Assembly (NCBI GenBank): GCA_018401355.1
Contig: JAGYLD010000020.1
Coordinates: 1-34,202, forward strand
Direction: 5' to 3'
Length of the DNA stretch: 34,202 nt
Source: Bacteroidales bacterium
Lineage (GTDB): Bacteria; Bacteroidota; Bacteroidia; Bacteroidales; B18-G4
In this document: piece after piece, positions 22,068 to 28,239 of the stretch
Numbering within the stretch: position 1 is the stretch's first letter
Layout of the letters: each line of letters opens with the position of its first letter
Notes under the pieces: model-generated
What the model saw: only the letters and a program-made list of their open reading frames with translations
What the model was told of the DNA's origin: nothing
Databases searched by the model: none
Program-made: the position numbers and the translations under genes

Positions 22068-22106
22068 TTAACAATTCCTTAACATACATTTAACACATAT
22101 TTAAAC
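22068..22106 (+). promoter_or_regulatory. Four TTAACA-type direct repeats at exact 11-bp spacing
   Basis: TTAACA begins at 22068, 22079 and 22090, and TTAAAC at 22101, each separated by 5 nt, so all lie on one face of the helix. The array ends 31 nt before the -7 element TAACTTTG (22138-22145), where an activator would sit. The layout matches OmpR/PhoB-family operators; TTAACA-like repeats with about 5-nt spacers are known for Bacillus PhoP. The regulator here is not known. Confidence 0.65.
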
Positions 22107-22137
22107 TGATATAAAAGCTTGCTATTGTTGATGCCAT

Positions 22138-22145
22138 TAACTTTG
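22138..22145 (+). promoter_or_regulatory. -7 element of the CarboxypepD_reg-like gene promoter
   Basis: TAACTTTG matches TAnnTTTG perfectly and lies 19 nt before the ATG at 22165. No TTTG is found at the -33 position, which together with the upstream TTAACA array suggests activator dependence. Confidence 0.6.
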
Positions 22146-22164
22146 CAGCAAATCTTATAAGCTT

Positions 22165-22521
22165 ATGAAAATAAAGCTGCTTTTCACATTCATTCTCATG
22201 ATTTTATTTTCCTGGCAAGGGTTTTCAGATGGCAATGAGCCTCTATCAGAGGAGACATCATCTGAAGCTTCCATTTCAGGAATGGTTGTAGATAAAAGTA
22301 CCGGAGAAGAACTGGTTTGTGCAAATATCCTTATTGATGAAATCGATTATAAAACTTGTACTGACATCGGTGGTAAATTTAAGTTTAAAAGCCTTCCCCC
22401 AGGAACATACACGATCAGAATCAAGTACATTTCTTATCAGGAAACCATTCTTAAAAAGATCACGGTTAAGAAAAACAAACCTGCAAATTTGAAGATTGAG
22501 TTGGAGCAAATCACTCTTTAA
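22165..22521 (+). CDS. Small secreted CarboxypepD_reg-like (beta-sandwich) domain protein
   Basis: 118 aa. An N-terminal signal peptide (about 1-21, ending GFS) is followed by one domain with ISGMVVDKSTGEELVCANI, DIGGKFKFKSLPPGTYTI and YISYQETI. This is the transthyretin/carboxypeptidase-regulatory-like fold that usually forms the N-terminus of SusC/TonB-dependent receptors. Here it stands alone: the protein ends after this domain and no TonB receptor follows. Its role is unknown; a periplasmic or surface binding module is the safe description. Upstream lie a perfect -7 element and a four-unit TTAACA array, and the last codons overlap another such array. Confidence 0.85.
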   Translation: MKIKLLFTFILMILFSWQGFSDGNEPLSEETSSEASISGMVVDKSTGEELVCANILIDEIDYKTCTDIGGKFKFKSLPPGTYTIRIKYISYQETILKKITVKKNKPANLKIELEQITL

Positions 22522-22554
22522 TACTCTTTAACACTCCTTAACAATTTCTTAATA
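22518..22554 (+). promoter_or_regulatory. Second TTAA(C/T)A direct-repeat array, forward orientation
   Basis: TTAATA (22518), TTAACA (22528), TTAACA (22538) and TTAATA (22549) are spaced 10, 10 and 11 bp apart. The array overlaps the stop codon of the preceding gene. A possible -7 element, TATTATTG (one mismatch to TAnnTTTG), lies 26 nt further on at 22581-22588. Confidence 0.5.
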
Positions 22555-22567
22555 CCTCACACCCCAA

Positions 22568-22603
22568 ATAGCTATTTATATATTATTGATGTATAGCTAT
22601 TTA
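22568..22603 (+). promoter_or_regulatory. Two copies of ATAGCTATTTA, 25 bp apart
   Basis: ATAGCTATTTA occurs at 22568-22578 and 22593-22603. Each contains the palindrome ATAGCTAT, extended to AATAGCTATT in the first copy. The pair brackets the candidate -7 element TATTATTG (22581-22588), which would suit a repressor site. Function unknown. Confidence 0.4.
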
Positions 22604-22643
22604 CCGCCAATGGCGTAAAATAATCACACATGACTATTGCTTT

Positions 22644-22687
22644 TATGTTAATTTTATGTTAACTTTGTGTTAAATTAATATTAAAAC
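22644..22687 (-). promoter_or_regulatory. Third array: four TGTTAA (reverse TTAACA) repeats at exact 11-bp spacing
   Basis: TGTTAA begins at 22646, 22657 and 22668, and TATTAA at 22679, giving an imperfect 4 x 11-bp tandem repeat. Read on the minus strand these are TTAACA units, opposite to the two upstream arrays. A TAACTTTG (22660-22667), which could be a -7 element for the MORN-repeat gene (with ATTG at 22636-22639), lies inside the array, so a bound regulator would probably block it. Confidence 0.55.
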
Positions 22688-22756
22688 ACATCATTTTTAC
22701 TGATGGACAATTTGACTTAATTATCTAATAATCAACAAAGAAATTGGGGGTGTGAT

Positions 22757-23212
22757 ATGAAAAAGCTCATTTTAACAGGATTTGTAATGATGTTTGCCAC
22801 GTTTATATGGGGGCAGGAAATTAAAATTGAAGATGGTAAATATTTTCAGGGAAGCGAGCCTTTGACCGGACAATGCATACAATATTACGATAATGGCAAT
22901 ATTAAATGCGAAATCAATGTTCAAAATGGCATCCCGGACGGACTGATGTATATTTACTATAACAATGGCAAACTCAAAGAGCAGAGATCCTATAAAAACG
23001 GTATGAAAGATGGAGTATGGATCCAATGGGATGAGAACCAGAACAAAATTGCTGAGGCCAGTTATAAAAATGATAAAAAACATGGATACTGGTTCATGTG
23101 GGATAAAGATGGCAACAAAAGGTATGAGTTATATTATGCCAATGGAGAAAAACAAGGCAACTGGTATCAATGGGATAATAACGGCAATCTTGCTATGGAA
23201 AAAGAGTTTTAA
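22757..23212 (+). CDS. Secreted MORN/YwqK-type repeat protein
   Basis: 151 aa. Signal peptide about 1-19 with Gln at the mature end (IWG/QEIK). The rest is about five repeats of roughly 23 residues, each with a G.W..W...G/N or YY.NG core (for example KDGVWIQWDENQN, HGYWFMWDKDGN, QGNWYQWDNNGN). This is the MORN-variant pattern of YwqK-like proteins, which form extended beta-hairpin stacks. Some databases label the family an antitoxin, but nothing here supports that; no toxin partner is adjacent. A scaffold or surface-binding role is possible. A G-rich stretch (GGGGG, 22746-22750) precedes the ATG. A strong terminator follows, so it is a single-gene unit. Confidence 0.85.
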   Translation: MKKLILTGFVMMFATFIWGQEIKIEDGKYFQGSEPLTGQCIQYYDNGNIKCEINVQNGIPDGLMYIYYNNGKLKEQRSYKNGMKDGVWIQWDENQNKIAEASYKNDKKHGYWFMWDKDGNKRYELYYANGEKQGNWYQWDNNGNLAMEKEF

Positions 23213-23237
23213 AAATAATATCTTTCTTATTACATTC

Positions 23238-23264
23238 AACGGGGCAAACAGCCCCGTTTTTTTT
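23238..23264 (+). terminator. Rho-independent terminator after the MORN-repeat gene
   Basis: A perfect 8-bp stem (AACGGGGC, 23238-23245; GCCCCGTT, 23251-23258) has a 5-nt loop, AAACA, followed by further T residues to 23264. It separates the MORN gene from the downstream operon. Confidence 0.95.
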
Positions 23265-23298
23265 GCAATATTTCAGGCCTATCAGCAACCTGCGGGTA

Positions 23299-23343
23299 TT
23301 AACTTATCTTAACAAATGTCTTTTGATATTATTAGTATTTTTG
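23299..23343 (+). promoter_or_regulatory. Promoter of the envelope operon with a TTAAC(A/T) repeat pair
   Basis: A -7 element TATTTTTG (perfect TAnnTTTG) at 23336-23343 lies 44 nt before the ATG at 23388. TTAACT (23299-23304) and TTAACA (23309-23314) lie 10 bp apart just upstream, covering the place where -33 would be; no TTTG is found there. This is the third consecutive intergenic region with such repeats. Confidence 0.5.
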
Positions 23344-23387: not shown

Positions 23388-24389
23388 ATGAACATCATCA
23401 TCCCTATGGCCGGAAAGGGCAAAAGAATGAGGCCACACACCCTTACAATCCCAAAACCTTTGATTCCTGTTGCAGGCAAAAGCATTGTTCAACGTCTCGT
23501 TGAAGAAATTGGCAAAGTTGTTACAGAAAATATTGATGAAATTGGATTTGTCATCGGTAATTTTGGGCCAGAGGTTGAATCCAGGCTTATAGCAATAGCC
23601 GAAGAAATTGGAGCAAAAGGGAAAATATTCTATCAGCATGACCCTTTGGGAACGGCCCATGCCATACTTTGCGCTGCAGAATCGCTTGATGGGAAAGTGA
23701 TCGTAGCATATGCCGACACCCTTTTTAAGGCAGACTTTTCTATGGATGATTCCAGGGACGGCATCATTTGGGTGAACAAGGTTGAAAATCCAAACTCTTT
23801 TGGTGTTGTGGAGCTAAATTCATCAGGAAACATCATAGCATTCCATGAAAAACCCAGTGAGTTTATCTCTGACAAGGCCATAATAGGCATTTACTATTTT
23901 AAGGATGGTGCCTACCTTAAAAACGAGTTGCAATACTTAATAGATAAAGGCATCAAAACAGGAGGTGAATATGGTATCACTGATGCCCTGCAGAACATGA
24001 TGAACAAAGGCACAGCTTTTTTTGTCGATTCTGTAACCGAATGGCTTGATTGCGGAAACAAAGATGCCACTGTTTATACCAACCAAAGGATACTTGAACA
24101 CCACAGGGATGAATCTTTGATATCAGATGACCTCGAATTAAATAATTCAATGATTATTGAACCCTGTTTTATCGGCCCCGATGTTAAGATCGATAACTCT
24201 GTGATCGGTCCACATGTATCGATTAGTAAAGGCTGTACAATTAAGAAAAGCATCATCAGAAACAGCATAATACAAGCTCATAGCACACTGATAAACCTTA
24301 ACCTGGACAATTCCATGGTTGGAAATCACGTTCAGGTTGAAAGAAAACCGGAAGACCTTAGCGTAGGCGATTATAATACTTTAAAATGA
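23388..24389 (+). CDS. Sugar-phosphate nucleotidyltransferase with left-handed beta-helix tail
   Basis: 333 aa from the chosen start. The nucleotidyltransferase domain opens directly with MNIIIPMAGKGKRMRP...T and IPKP (about 1-24), the RmlA/GalU-type NTP-binding signature; YADTLFKADF and GGEYGITDAL follow as metal- and sugar-binding stretches. From about residue 250, hexapeptide-like repeats (IGPDVKIDNSVIGPHV and on) form a left-handed beta-helix. The enzyme joins a sugar-1-phosphate to an NTP to make an activated sugar for envelope polysaccharide or lipopolysaccharide; the exact sugar and nucleotide cannot be read from sequence. An in-frame ATG at 23316 is rejected because it lies upstream of the -7 element. 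Its stop overlaps the next start (ATGA). Confidence 0.9.
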   Translation: MNIIIPMAGKGKRMRPHTLTIPKPLIPVAGKSIVQRLVEEIGKVVTENIDEIGFVIGNFGPEVESRLIAIAEEIGAKGKIFYQHDPLGTAHAILCAAESLDGKVIVAYADTLFKADFSMDDSRDGIIWVNKVENPNSFGVVELNSSGNIIAFHEKPSEFISDKAIIGIYYFKDGAYLKNELQYLIDKGIKTGGEYGITDALQNMMNKGTAFFVDSVTEWLDCGNKDATVYTNQRILEHHRDESLISDDLELNNSMIIEPCFIGPDVKIDNSVIGPHVSISKGCTIKKSIIRNSIIQAHSTLINLNLDNSMVGNHVQVERKPEDLSVGDYNTLK

Positions 24390-26137
24390 TCATTATGAAT
24401 TTTAAGAAATGTTTTGCTTTTATAATACTCTTTCTGATTGGCATGTTCTTTATTCATCCCATTGCCCATGGCCAGGAAGAAGAAATTATAACCAACACCG
24501 GGAACAAAAGCAAGGAGAGACAGGATAACGCACAGCTTTTCATCGACGCAAAAAAAAACATGATCCTGGGTGATTATGAAAAAGCGGAAAAACTTTTTCT
24601 CACATGCACAGATAGGGATCCGTATGACGGAGCATCCTGGTATGAGCTCTCCAGGATCAGGTTAAATGATAATGATCCTGTAACAGCCATTGAATACGCT
24701 AAAAAAGCCTACAGTTCCGATCCGGAAAATATCTGGTACATGATCCATCTTTCGAATATATATAAAAGGACTTCACAGTTCACTGAAGCATCAGAAGTAC
24801 TGGAAGACCTCTTAGCCAAATATCCTGACCGTTATGAATATTACAATGATCTTGCCGTTGCTTATCTTTTCAGCAGGGAATATGGCAAGGCAATTGATCT
24901 TTACAACACCCTTGAAGATAAGTTTGGTGTTACTGAAGAAACATCTTTGCAAAAACATAAAATTTATTTACTTCAAAACGATCAGGAGAATGCAATAAAG
25001 GAAATTGAAAAAGTTATTGAGACATCGCCCTCAGAGGCCAGGTATTATTCCATCATTGCAGAACTCTATATTTCATCCGGACAGGATAAAAAAGGGCTTG
25101 AAGCTTATAAAAAAGTCCTGGAGCTTGATCCTGCCAATCCGTACATTCATATCTCCCTTTCAGACTTTTACCGGAAAGATGGAGACCAGAAAAAGGCATA
25201 CGACTATTTAAAGCAAGGTTTCGCCAATTCTGAGCTTGAGATTGACACCAAGATCAATATTTTACTTGCCTATTACACCGCCAATGAATTCTATGACGAA
25301 AAGAAGGATGAAGCCTTTGAGCTGTCAGATATCCTTGTGGAAACCCATCCTGACAACCCAAAAGCCCATTCCATCAGGGCAGATCTGCTATTTCAGGCAA
25401 AAGAATTCAACAGTGCCAGGGTCGCACTCAGGAAGGTGATCTCCCTTGATAGCAGCAGATACCTGGTATGGGAACAACTGCTTTTTACCGAGTCGGAATT
25501 AAAGGATTTTGATGCCATGGCCAAAGAAAGTGAAAGAGCAATAGGGCTCTTTCCACAACAACCACTTCCCTATCTCTTTTCTGCAGTAGCAAATTTTCAA
25601 AACAAAGAATTCGACAAAGCTGTTGAAGTTTTGGAAAAAGGCGTCAGGTTTGTGGTCGACAATGAATTGCTAAAGGCACAGTTTTATTCATACCTTGGAG
25701 ATGCTTACCATGAGCTGGATGAAGATGAAAAAGCATTTAACTACTATGAGAAAACATTGAAGATAGATCCGGATAATTCCATCGTCCTGAATAATTACGC
25801 ATATTACCTTTCATTGCAGGATAAAGATCTCGAAAAGGCCCTGGAAATGGCTCAGCAAGCCGTGGAGCTTGACCCGGAAAATGCTTCAAACCAGGATACT
25901 TATGGCTGGATCTTTTATAAACTTGGCCGCTATGAAGAAGCAAAGGAATGGGTTGGAAAATCATTAAAAAACCACAATGAAGATAATGGCGTTATCCTGG
26001 AACATTATGGTGATATTTTATTTAAACTCGGGGAAAAGGAAAAAGCATTAAGACACTGGAAAAAAGCCAAAGAGGCAGGCGGAGATGTGACAGAATTCCT
26101 GGATAAAAAAATTAATGACAAGAATCTCTACGAATAG
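24386..26137 (+). CDS. Exported tetratricopeptide-repeat (TPR) protein
   Basis: 583 aa from the ATG that overlaps the previous stop; a second ATG at 24395 (MNFKKCF) is equally plausible and leaves a tidier signal peptide. The mature end has Gln (AHG/QEEE). The body is a near-continuous array of TPR units (such as YEKAEKLFLTCTDRDP, GLEAYKKVLELDPANP, AFNYYEKTLKIDPDNS, ALEMAQQAVELDPENA), roughly 12-14 by eye, forming a superhelical protein-binding scaffold in the periplasm or at the outer membrane. Order and spacing (4-nt overlap before, 10 nt after) place it in one operon with the DUF4292 lipoprotein and the EnvC-like gene, a neighbourhood I recall as common in Bacteroidota. Partner proteins are unknown. 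Confidence 0.92.
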   Translation: MIIMNFKKCFAFIILFLIGMFFIHPIAHGQEEEIITNTGNKSKERQDNAQLFIDAKKNMILGDYEKAEKLFLTCTDRDPYDGASWYELSRIRLNDNDPVTAIEYAKKAYSSDPENIWYMIHLSNIYKRTSQFTEASEVLEDLLAKYPDRYEYYNDLAVAYLFSREYGKAIDLYNTLEDKFGVTEETSLQKHKIYLLQNDQENAIKEIEKVIETSPSEARYYSIIAELYISSGQDKKGLEAYKKVLELDPANPYIHISLSDFYRKDGDQKKAYDYLKQGFANSELEIDTKINILLAYYTANEFYDEKKDEAFELSDILVETHPDNPKAHSIRADLLFQAKEFNSARVALRKVISLDSSRYLVWEQLLFTESELKDFDAMAKESERAIGLFPQQPLPYLFSAVANFQNKEFDKAVEVLEKGVRFVVDNELLKAQFYSYLGDAYHELDEDEKAFNYYEKTLKIDPDNSIVLNNYAYYLSLQDKDLEKALEMAQQAVELDPENASNQDTYGWIFYKLGRYEEAKEWVGKSLKNHNEDNGVILEHYGDILFKLGEKEKALRHWKKAKEAGGDVTEFLDKKINDKNLYE

Positions 26138-26147
26138 ATAGTGCGCA

Positions 26148-26981
26148 ATGAAAACTATTTATCTTTCATTAACAGCCAAATCACTGGTGGCAATTTTATT
26201 GCTGGCACTGATGCTGGGATCCTGTAAAACAAAAAGATATATTTACAAAGAACCCATTAAAGAAGAAGGACCTGAATACCTGTTTGACCAGTTATCAAAA
26301 AATGAATTGAAATTTGAATCCTTTGCAGCAAAATTCAACATTGATTACATCCACGATAAGAAAAAAACAGAGTTCAAAGGCCAGATAAGAATACTTAAAG
26401 ACAGCGTCATATGGGTTTCCTTCAGCCCAGCCCTTGGAATAGAAATGGCCAGACTGATGATCACGAATGATTCTGTGAAGTTTATGAACAGGTTAGATAA
26501 AACCTATTTTATCGGCGACTATGAATTTGTTAATGATTTCCTGGAAACAAATATTGATTTCGACATCCTGCAATCATTTATCATTGGTAATGACTTTCAG
26601 TTTTACGATAAGACAAAATTCAAAGCCTCCATCGATGGTATGAAATACCGGCTGACTACAATGGAAAGAAGCCAACTGAAAAAGTATGTCAGAAAAAAAG
26701 AAAAGTACCCAAAAGTTTTTATCCAGACCATCTGGCTTAATCCGGCCACATTTAAAATATCCCGGATTATGATCAAAGAGATAAAAAAACAAAACAAAAA
26801 ACTGGAAGCCAATTACAGTGATTTCGAAAACATCCATGAACAACTGTTTCCCCTTGAATTGAAGTTTGACCTGACAGCTGAAGAAAAATTTGAGGTTTTT
26901 GTCAAATACTCCCGGATCAACCTCAACGAGGATCTTAAATTCCCTTTCAGGATACCAGGGAAATATCAAAGAATTTATTAG
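26148..26981 (+). CDS. DUF4292-family outer-membrane lipoprotein
   Basis: 277 aa. The lipobox ends at Cys26 (MLGSC/KTKR) after a hydrophobic segment. The mature part fits DUF4292: an early FAAKFNIDYIHDKKK strand pair, then ILKDSVIWVSFSPALGIEMARLMIT, NRLDKTYFIGDYEFVNDFL, and a C-terminal beta-rich half ending YSRINLNEDLKFPFRIPGKYQRI. The pattern of an amphipathic half-barrel resembles LolA/LolB-like lipoprotein carriers, but that role is an inference. It lies between the TPR gene (10 nt) and the EnvC-like gene (10 nt), so the three probably act together in envelope assembly. Confidence 0.88.
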   Translation: MKTIYLSLTAKSLVAILLLALMLGSCKTKRYIYKEPIKEEGPEYLFDQLSKNELKFESFAAKFNIDYIHDKKKTEFKGQIRILKDSVIWVSFSPALGIEMARLMITNDSVKFMNRLDKTYFIGDYEFVNDFLETNIDFDILQSFIIGNDFQFYDKTKFKASIDGMKYRLTTMERSQLKKYVRKKEKYPKVFIQTIWLNPATFKISRIMIKEIKKQNKKLEANYSDFENIHEQLFPLELKFDLTAEEKFEVFVKYSRINLNEDLKFPFRIPGKYQRIY

Positions 26982-26991
26982 TTTCGTATCC

Positions 26992-28239
26992 ATGACAAGC
27001 GGGTCAGCATATATCGCCGGGATCAGGTCAGCAATCATTTTATTTCTGCTTATTTCAGGAATAGCTGCATTGGGTCAAACTAAAGAACGTACACAGCTGG
27101 AGGATCAGAAAAAAAAGATAGAGCAGGAAATATCTTACAACAACCAACTGCTTGAGGAGACCCGAAAATCAAAGAAATCCTCCCTGAACGAGCTTGTATT
27201 GCTGGATAAGCAGGTTGAAAAAAGGGAACAACTAATCACCGCGATCAACAGGGAGATCCGGTATTTTGAAAAACAGATCAGGCAAAACAACGACAGCATA
27301 AGAAAGCTAAAATCCGACCTTAAAAAGCTAAAAGAAGAATATGCAAGGATGATATACCATGCATACAAAAACCGGAACATATATAACCGCCTGATGTTTA
27401 TTTTTTCCGCAGAAGATTTTAATCAGGCTTACCGCCGCCTGAAATATTTCCAGCAATATAGTTCATACCGTAAAACACAGGCCAATTTGATCCTGATGAC
27501 ACAAAAGGCTTTATCTGTTAAAACAGAAGAGCTTTCCCTGCAAAAAAAGCAAAAAGAAGAACTCCTGCAGGACCAGGAGGAAGAAATAAACCAGCTTTCA
27601 AAAGAAAAAAATTTAAAAAACAAGACCATCAACCTGCTTTCCAGGAAAGAAAAAGAATTAAAAAAAGAACTTGCTGATAAACAGAAGGCTGCAGCAAACC
27701 TTCAGGAAGCCATCGAAGCCATCATAGCTGAGGAGATACGCCTTGCAAAGGAAAAGGCAAAGAGAGAAGCCAACATGACCAAAAAGGAAGATATGTCACT
27801 GACCCCTGCTGAGCTGGAATTGTCTTCCAGTTTCGAAGAAAACCGTGGCAAACTTCCCTGGCCTACAGACAAAGGGGTTGTATCAAGCAGGTTCGGAAAA
27901 CATGACCATCCGGTTTTAAAAAGGGTACAGGTTAACAATAATGGAATAGACATTGTAACCTCCAGAGGAACCAGTGCAAGAGCCATTTTTGATGGAACGG
28001 TCACCCGGGTCATTTCTATTCCAAGTTATCACAATGGTGTAATCATCAGGCATGGTGAATACCTGACGGTATATCTTAACCTCGACAAAGTTTTTGTCAG
28101 CAAAGGCGATAAGATCAGCACCCTCCAGGAAATCGGAACGATACATACCAAAGAAGATGAAGGGAAAACAGAATTGCATTTTGAGATCTGGAAGTCGAAA
28201 AACTTGCAAAATCCCATAAACTGGTTATTGCCTCGTTAA
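26992..28239 (+). CDS. EnvC-like murein hydrolase activator (coiled coil + degenerate LytM/M23)
   Basis: 415 aa from ATG 26992, chosen because it gives a clean signal peptide (AALG/QTKE) and a 10-nt gap; the frame is open further upstream, overlapping the DUF4292 gene. Residues about 30-250 form long charged coiled coils. The C-terminal LytM domain starts near LPWPTDKGVVSSRFG. Two zinc ligands appear lost: the first His is Asn (NNNGIDI instead of H.GIDI) and the first His of H.H is Glu (ELHFEIW). As in E. coli EnvC, this predicts an inactive domain that activates cell-wall amidases during division instead of cutting peptidoglycan. It ends the operon; its stop overlaps the stop of the convergent subtilisin. 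Confidence 0.9.
   Translation: MTSGSAYIAGIRSAIILFLLISGIAALGQTKERTQLEDQKKKIEQEISYNNQLLEETRKSKKSSLNELVLLDKQVEKREQLITAINREIRYFEKQIRQNNDSIRKLKSDLKKLKEEYARMIYHAYKNRNIYNRLMFIFSAEDFNQAYRRLKYFQQYSSYRKTQANLILMTQKALSVKTEELSLQKKQKEELLQDQEEEINQLSKEKNLKNKTINLLSRKEKELKKELADKQKAAANLQEAIEAIIAEEIRLAKEKAKREANMTKKEDMSLTPAELELSSSFEENRGKLPWPTDKGVVSSRFGKHDHPVLKRVQVNNNGIDIVTSRGTSARAIFDGTVTRVISIPSYHNGVIIRHGEYLTVYLNLDKVFVSKGDKISTLQEIGTIHTKEDEGKTELHFEIWKSKNLQNPINWLLPR

Follow-up and report, generated by a model that had tools for sequence, protein, structure and literature searches.

Arrays of TTAACA-type direct repeats around a small CarboxypepD_reg gene and a MORN gene of a Bacteroidales bacterium are, with a probability that we put at roughly 0.7, Pho boxes of a Bacteroidota type, in which TTAACA half-sites arranged head-to-tail every 11 bp would be recognized by the PhoB-like regulator encoded on another contig (C204) of the same genome. 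As judged from the sequence, this assignment concerns the arrays termed 1 and 3 below and, less certainly, array 4.

The TTAACA arrays and their conservation

The window, i.e. the whole stretch of 34,202 nucleotides that was analysed, is contig C113 of a draft genome of 2.93 Mb in 205 contigs that is 83% complete, and the intergenic DNA around the arrays is 70% AT. T9SS sorting domains, the gene content and the close relatives of its PhoB point to a genome of the Bacteroidota. At positions 73-20470, the window encodes five gingipain-like Peptidase_C25 proteins in a row (1255-1329 aa), which carry Por_Secre_tail (T9SS) domains. The repeat units of all four arrays were found where the first-pass annotation had placed them, and the features of the region are the following:

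22068..22106, plus strand: array 1, four TTAACA-type units with 11-bp period, 5' of the CarboxypepD_reg gene
22138..22145, plus strand: −7 element TAACTTTG, 31 bp past array 1, in phase
22165..22521, plus strand: small CarboxypepD_reg-like protein, 118 aa, apparent signal peptide (Pfam PF13715/PF13620)
22518..22554, plus strand: array 2, four TTAAYA units, spacing 10, 10, 11 bp
22637..22667, plus strand: complete MORN promoter, TTG (22637-22639), 20 bp, TAACTTTG (22660-22667), overlapped by array 3
22646..22684, minus strand: array 3, four TTAACA-type units with 11-bp period, conserved in three species
22757..23212, plus strand: MORN_2 protein, 151 aa, apparent signal peptide (PF07661)
23299..23314, plus strand: array 4, two units, TTAACT (23299) and TTAACA (23309), 10 bp apart
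23336..23343, plus strand: −7 element TATTTTTG, 21 bp past array 4, same in all three species
23388..28239, plus strand: envelope operon 3' of array 4 (sugar-nucleotidyltransferase, TPR, DUF4292, M23 peptidase)

The units of array 1 start at 22068, 22079, 22090 and 22101 (three times TTAACA, then TTAAAC), and positions 22089-22095 within it read TTTAACA, i.e. a half-site of the RprY type is present. This array is kept in the congener G002, where the counterpart of its −7 element is TACTTTTG, while the contig of the congener G001 stops short of the position. Array 3, with minus-strand units at 22646, 22657 and 22668 (exact TTAACA) and 22679 (TTAATA), is almost identical in both congeners. Array 4 is present in three species of the genus, G001 and G002 included, and is missing upstream of the envelope operon in the next genus and in other genera, so that its conservation is restricted to the genus. 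Array 2, whose units start at 22518, 22528, 22538 and 22549 and which begins within the last bases of the CarboxypepD_reg gene (end at 22521), is absent from both congeners in the alignment, and no phased −7 element follows it. As a working box it is thus unsupported, and it is probably no functional box, or a weak one.

Could the repeats simply be a product of AT-rich intergenic DNA? The base composition of the region and the lack of conservation of array 2 would agree with this, but simulations, reversed-pattern controls, conservation and the phase lock described below all oppose it, and as a general explanation it is extremely improbable. When the 519 intergenic bases were simulated 1,500 times with a Markov model and both strands were scored, a 3-unit score of at least 17 of 18 never occurred (0/1,500), and arrays 1, 2 and 3 score 18, 17 and 18. 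The level of array 4, with 11 of 12 for two units, was found in 2.4% of the simulations, and array 4 is therefore weak on score alone. Chance is still a possible origin of array 2, but it is refuted as that of arrays 1 and 3.

Occurrence of the motif in the genome and in relatives

The exact pair TTAACAN5TTAACA has 11 matches in the draft genome versus none for the reversed control, and all 11 are intergenic, as judged by the ORFs read. One of them precedes the gene of a PiT phosphate transporter (C162), which lies near a PhoU-bearing Na/Pi transporter gene, the only clear PhoU-bearing one in the genome. The PhoB-like gene on C204 has an exact pair just 3' and a weaker array just 5', and on C79 another pair separates the gene of an RprX-like kinase from that of a small Cys-rich protein. 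Further exact pairs precede genes for a HYC-type small protein, a thioredoxin-like protein and a sortilin-like exoprotein, as well as a tiny ORF beside pckA. For the HYC-type protein, the sortilin-like exoprotein and the likewise boxed moxR, a role in phosphate metabolism is not obvious, which counts against PhoB as the regulator, and searches of the genome, as far as it is complete (83%), found neither PstS nor an alkaline phosphatase of PF00245. At moxR, the array (C127, 27265-27292) lies 32 bp before the −7 element. A further phased array (L048, 4598-4760, on C7) lies between a dnaN-like gene and pckA, in front of an ORF of some 33 aa that has a single hydrophobic segment.

In eight genomes of the same family (G001-G008), the exact pair occurs 54 times versus 7 times for the control. 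Orthologous sites lie before PiT in G001, G004 and G006 and before a Na/Pi cotransporter in G005, and the genes of the HYC and sortilin-like proteins, as well as the one divergent from rprX, are likewise preceded by orthologous sites. In six genomes from other families of the order, the exact pair lacks genome-wide enrichment; outside the family, its enrichment is confined to Pho loci, which is a point against the Pho-box reading. An exact triple pattern, searched over 60 relatives, was too strict, and few genomes matched.

Phasing relative to the promoter

A fixed spacing is characteristic of the arrays on their downstream side. The −7 element TANNTTTG clusters 9-10, 20-21 and 31-32 bp after the last array unit, with 24 family sites in phase and 18 off (p=2e-8), and with 24 sites of PhoB islands in phase and 10 off (p=3e-11), whereas on the opposite side of the arrays, which served as control, 3 were in phase and 21 off, without any phase lock. 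The arrays are therefore phase-locked to the promoter. Array 1 obeys the rule with 31 bp (32 bp in G002), and array 4 with 21 bp in three species, while array 3 is off phase relative to the −7 element. Such a geometry would be that of an activator that always contacts sigma from the same side of the DNA, and the phased spacing supports the activator architecture that the first-pass annotation had proposed. Its description of −7 elements that lack a proper −33 element applies to arrays 1 and 4; it does not apply to array 2.

Linkage of the genes and of the motif to phosphate loci

Orthologs of the MORN protein are present across the order, and the small CarboxypepD_reg protein usually accompanies them. 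Within about 5 kb, 16 of 20 MORN ortholog loci contain a PhoB-like regulator, the lipoprotein that accompanies PhoB, a Na/Pi or PiT transporter, or a porin, and none of 20 MORN paralog loci have such neighbours (Fisher p=7e-9 with 18 orthologs scored, as L143 and L149, which have no callable MORN ORF, were excluded from this comparison and counted as negatives in the 16/20). The BLAST references were partly drawn from the counted loci, and the proteins of the analysed genome alone give the same 16 loci. The CarboxypepD_reg protein, as the neighbour of the MORN orthologs, is linked to PhoB islands across the order, and 7 of its 14 orthologs have arrays upstream. This agrees with the earlier suggestion that both genes are connected to phosphate. 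In the loci of the order, arrays with a score of at least 15 of 18 were detected upstream of 14/68 Pho-island genes versus 1/63 control genes. One Bacteroidales locus (L211) comprises the complete island of porin, CarboxypepD_reg, MORN, TonB receptor, lipoprotein, PhoB and PiT.

A scan of genome contigs with the MORN protein gave no relatives; as the MORN alignment is too variable for scanning, PhoB was used as query. In 67 Bacteroidota PhoB-like loci from named genomes, which were fetched by protein and without reference to the motif, the hexamer with the strongest enrichment upstream of Pho genes is TTAACA with a repeat distance of 11 bp (29/104 versus 4/348, p=2e-16), and no hexamer approaches this enrichment at spacings of 7-10 or 12-14 bp. 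Together with the exact pairs in the own genome, this enrichment at PhoB loci argues for the OmpR/PhoB-family regulator that had been postulated. The PhoB-like gene of the genome (C204, 6220-6906) encodes a regulator whose best NCBIfam models are those of PhoB, with scores that stay below the equivalog thresholds (206 bits against 296, and 202 against 270), and the ranking of the models and the gene context indicate that it is PhoB-like. The gene has no adjoining histidine kinase. A DUF4301-like ORF lies upstream of it, and a homolog of this ORF is also found near PhoB in L148.

PhoB or RprY as regulator

A second OmpR-type candidate has to be considered. In Riemerella anatipestifer, the motif TTTAACA of a regulator termed ‘PhoP’ is supported by DAP-seq and EMSA (PMC9603813), and the qPCR primers published for this ‘PhoP’ (PMC5399024) encode the peptides DGEEGLK and GYQLGAD (DGEEGLK..GYQLGAD), which match the RprY ortholog of Chryseobacterium (L233) and not its PhoB (L239). 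This indicates that the Riemerella ‘PhoP’ is an RprY ortholog, and RprY therefore appears to recognize TTTAACA and has to be taken seriously as a candidate, especially where array 4 and the envelope operon are concerned. An array between the gene of an RprX-like kinase and that of a small exported Cys-rich protein was observed in the analysed genome (L047, 6715-6760 on C79) and at L083, L094, L098, L100, L110, L117 and L121, mostly with a −7 element 20-21 bp downstream, and it is probably an autoregulatory site of RprXY.

It is thus conceivable that the arrays in the window are RprY sites that act in the response to envelope or oxidative stress, and that the phosphate linkage is incidental. 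Besides the Riemerella motif, the family-wide position of TTAACA arrays between rprX and the small Cys-rich gene, the phased array at moxR, which is a validated Riemerella target, and the envelope operon that follows array 4 speak for this possibility. However, the sites on the rprX side of the family mostly have the layout 11,10,11, which arrays 1 and 3 do not share: both are 11,11,11, and this uninterrupted 11-bp arrangement is the commonest layout in PhoB islands (17/28). Moreover, the genes for CarboxypepD_reg and MORN are found in association with PhoB and not with RprXY. Because of the gene linkage and the uninterrupted layout, PhoB is favoured, and an assignment of all arrays to RprY appears quite unlikely; for array 4, the regulator could be RprY.

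An intermediate solution, in which PhoB and RprY share or compete for the arrays and the window is a node of phosphate and envelope-stress cross-regulation, would make use of the half-site that the two regulators seem to have in common and of the fact that both layouts occur in one genome, but the layouts differ between the PhoB and RprY site sets, and we regard it as a somewhat doubtful possibility. In the most far-reaching reading, which we put forward tentatively and consider to have a minor chance of being correct, one TTAACA half-site would serve PhoB and RprY in Bacteroidota, the two would be distinguished by layout, and the sites would be phase-locked to the unusual −7 element. The MORN gene would then be a switch point at which the inverted array silences the housekeeping promoter and the upstream array drives expression. 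The earlier view that a single OmpR/PhoB-family regulator, perhaps of phosphate starvation, controls the CarboxypepD_reg and MORN genes and the envelope operon was largely right and yet too uniform, as array 2 is not conserved, array 3 is inverted and array 4 possibly belongs to RprY.

Proposed mechanism and the inverted array 3

If PhoB is the regulator, we infer that phosphorylated PhoB would line up along a single side of the helix at array 1, and probably at array 4, as a chain whose end lies 9-10, 20-21 or 31-32 bp upstream of the −7 element, and this chain would substitute for the missing −33 contact of sigma. Under phosphate scarcity, the small CarboxypepD_reg protein would thereby be switched on, and the MORN protein with it.

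The situation at array 3 is probably different. The MORN promoter is complete, and its TTG-N20-TAAYTTTG arrangement is fully conserved in the three-species alignment. Since array 3 lies inverted over this complete promoter, it may repress rather than activate, and PhoB bound across the −33/−7 promoter would more likely block or redirect it. Repression is the simplest reading, albeit one in which our confidence is low. Alternatively, array 3 could belong to a minus-strand promoter that generates an antisense transcript across the CarboxypepD_reg gene, and would then be no MORN operator. A TATTTT-like minus-strand −7 element is indeed conserved 23 bp past array 3 in three species, but this distance does not agree with the phase of 20-21 bp, the match of the element is limited to 4-5 of 6, and it is the promoter on the plus strand that is fully conserved, which together make an antisense role unlikely.

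Comparison with known systems

In Escherichia coli, the Pho box sits upstream of the −10 element and replaces a poor −35 element. This box, to which PhoB binds, consists of direct repeats of 11-bp units (reviewed in PMC4415409). The arrays described here resemble it in the 11-bp direct repeats and in the apparent replacement of a poor sigma contact, but the half-site is TTAACA instead of TGTCA-like, the partner element is the Bacteroidota −7 element TANNTTTG, and the distance upstream is often larger by one or two 11-bp steps. The Pho box of Bacillus subtilis PhoP is composed of TTAACA-like repeats with spacers of about 5 bp. Half-site and period are thus nearly those of the arrays here, but B. 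subtilis belongs to another phylum and uses another sigma, and the regulator here is nearest to PhoB models. The Riemerella ‘PhoP’ shares the half-site and the phylum, but it is an RprY ortholog by the above-described comparison, and a deletion of its system leads to an increase, not a decrease, in pstS (PMC5399024).

In the literature searched, no TTAACA Pho box was found for a Bacteroidota PhoB, and such a box is apparently new for the phylum. The rule of TTAACA-N5 repeats with a −7 element at 9-10, 20-21 or 31-32 bp could make the phosphate regulons of Bacteroidota readable from sequence, gut and soil species included, and the small CarboxypepD_reg protein and the MORN protein, both of them conserved envelope proteins that are uncharacterised, would be placed in the phosphate-starvation response. 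Another related system is the PhoBR-TBDT-lipoprotein island of Flavobacterium johnsoniae. The passages searched in PMC8115612 give no box sequence for this island and mention no MORN partner, and they describe a strong induction of the island, with its TBDT and FII lipoprotein, by phosphate depletion, which speaks for the assignment to PhoB. The PhoBR operon/PUSIV (Fjoh_0542-0549) combines PhoB, a TonB receptor, an FII lipoprotein and an OprP-type porin, which, at the level of gene order and domain description and not of sequence comparison, is the combination seen in many of the loci analysed here.
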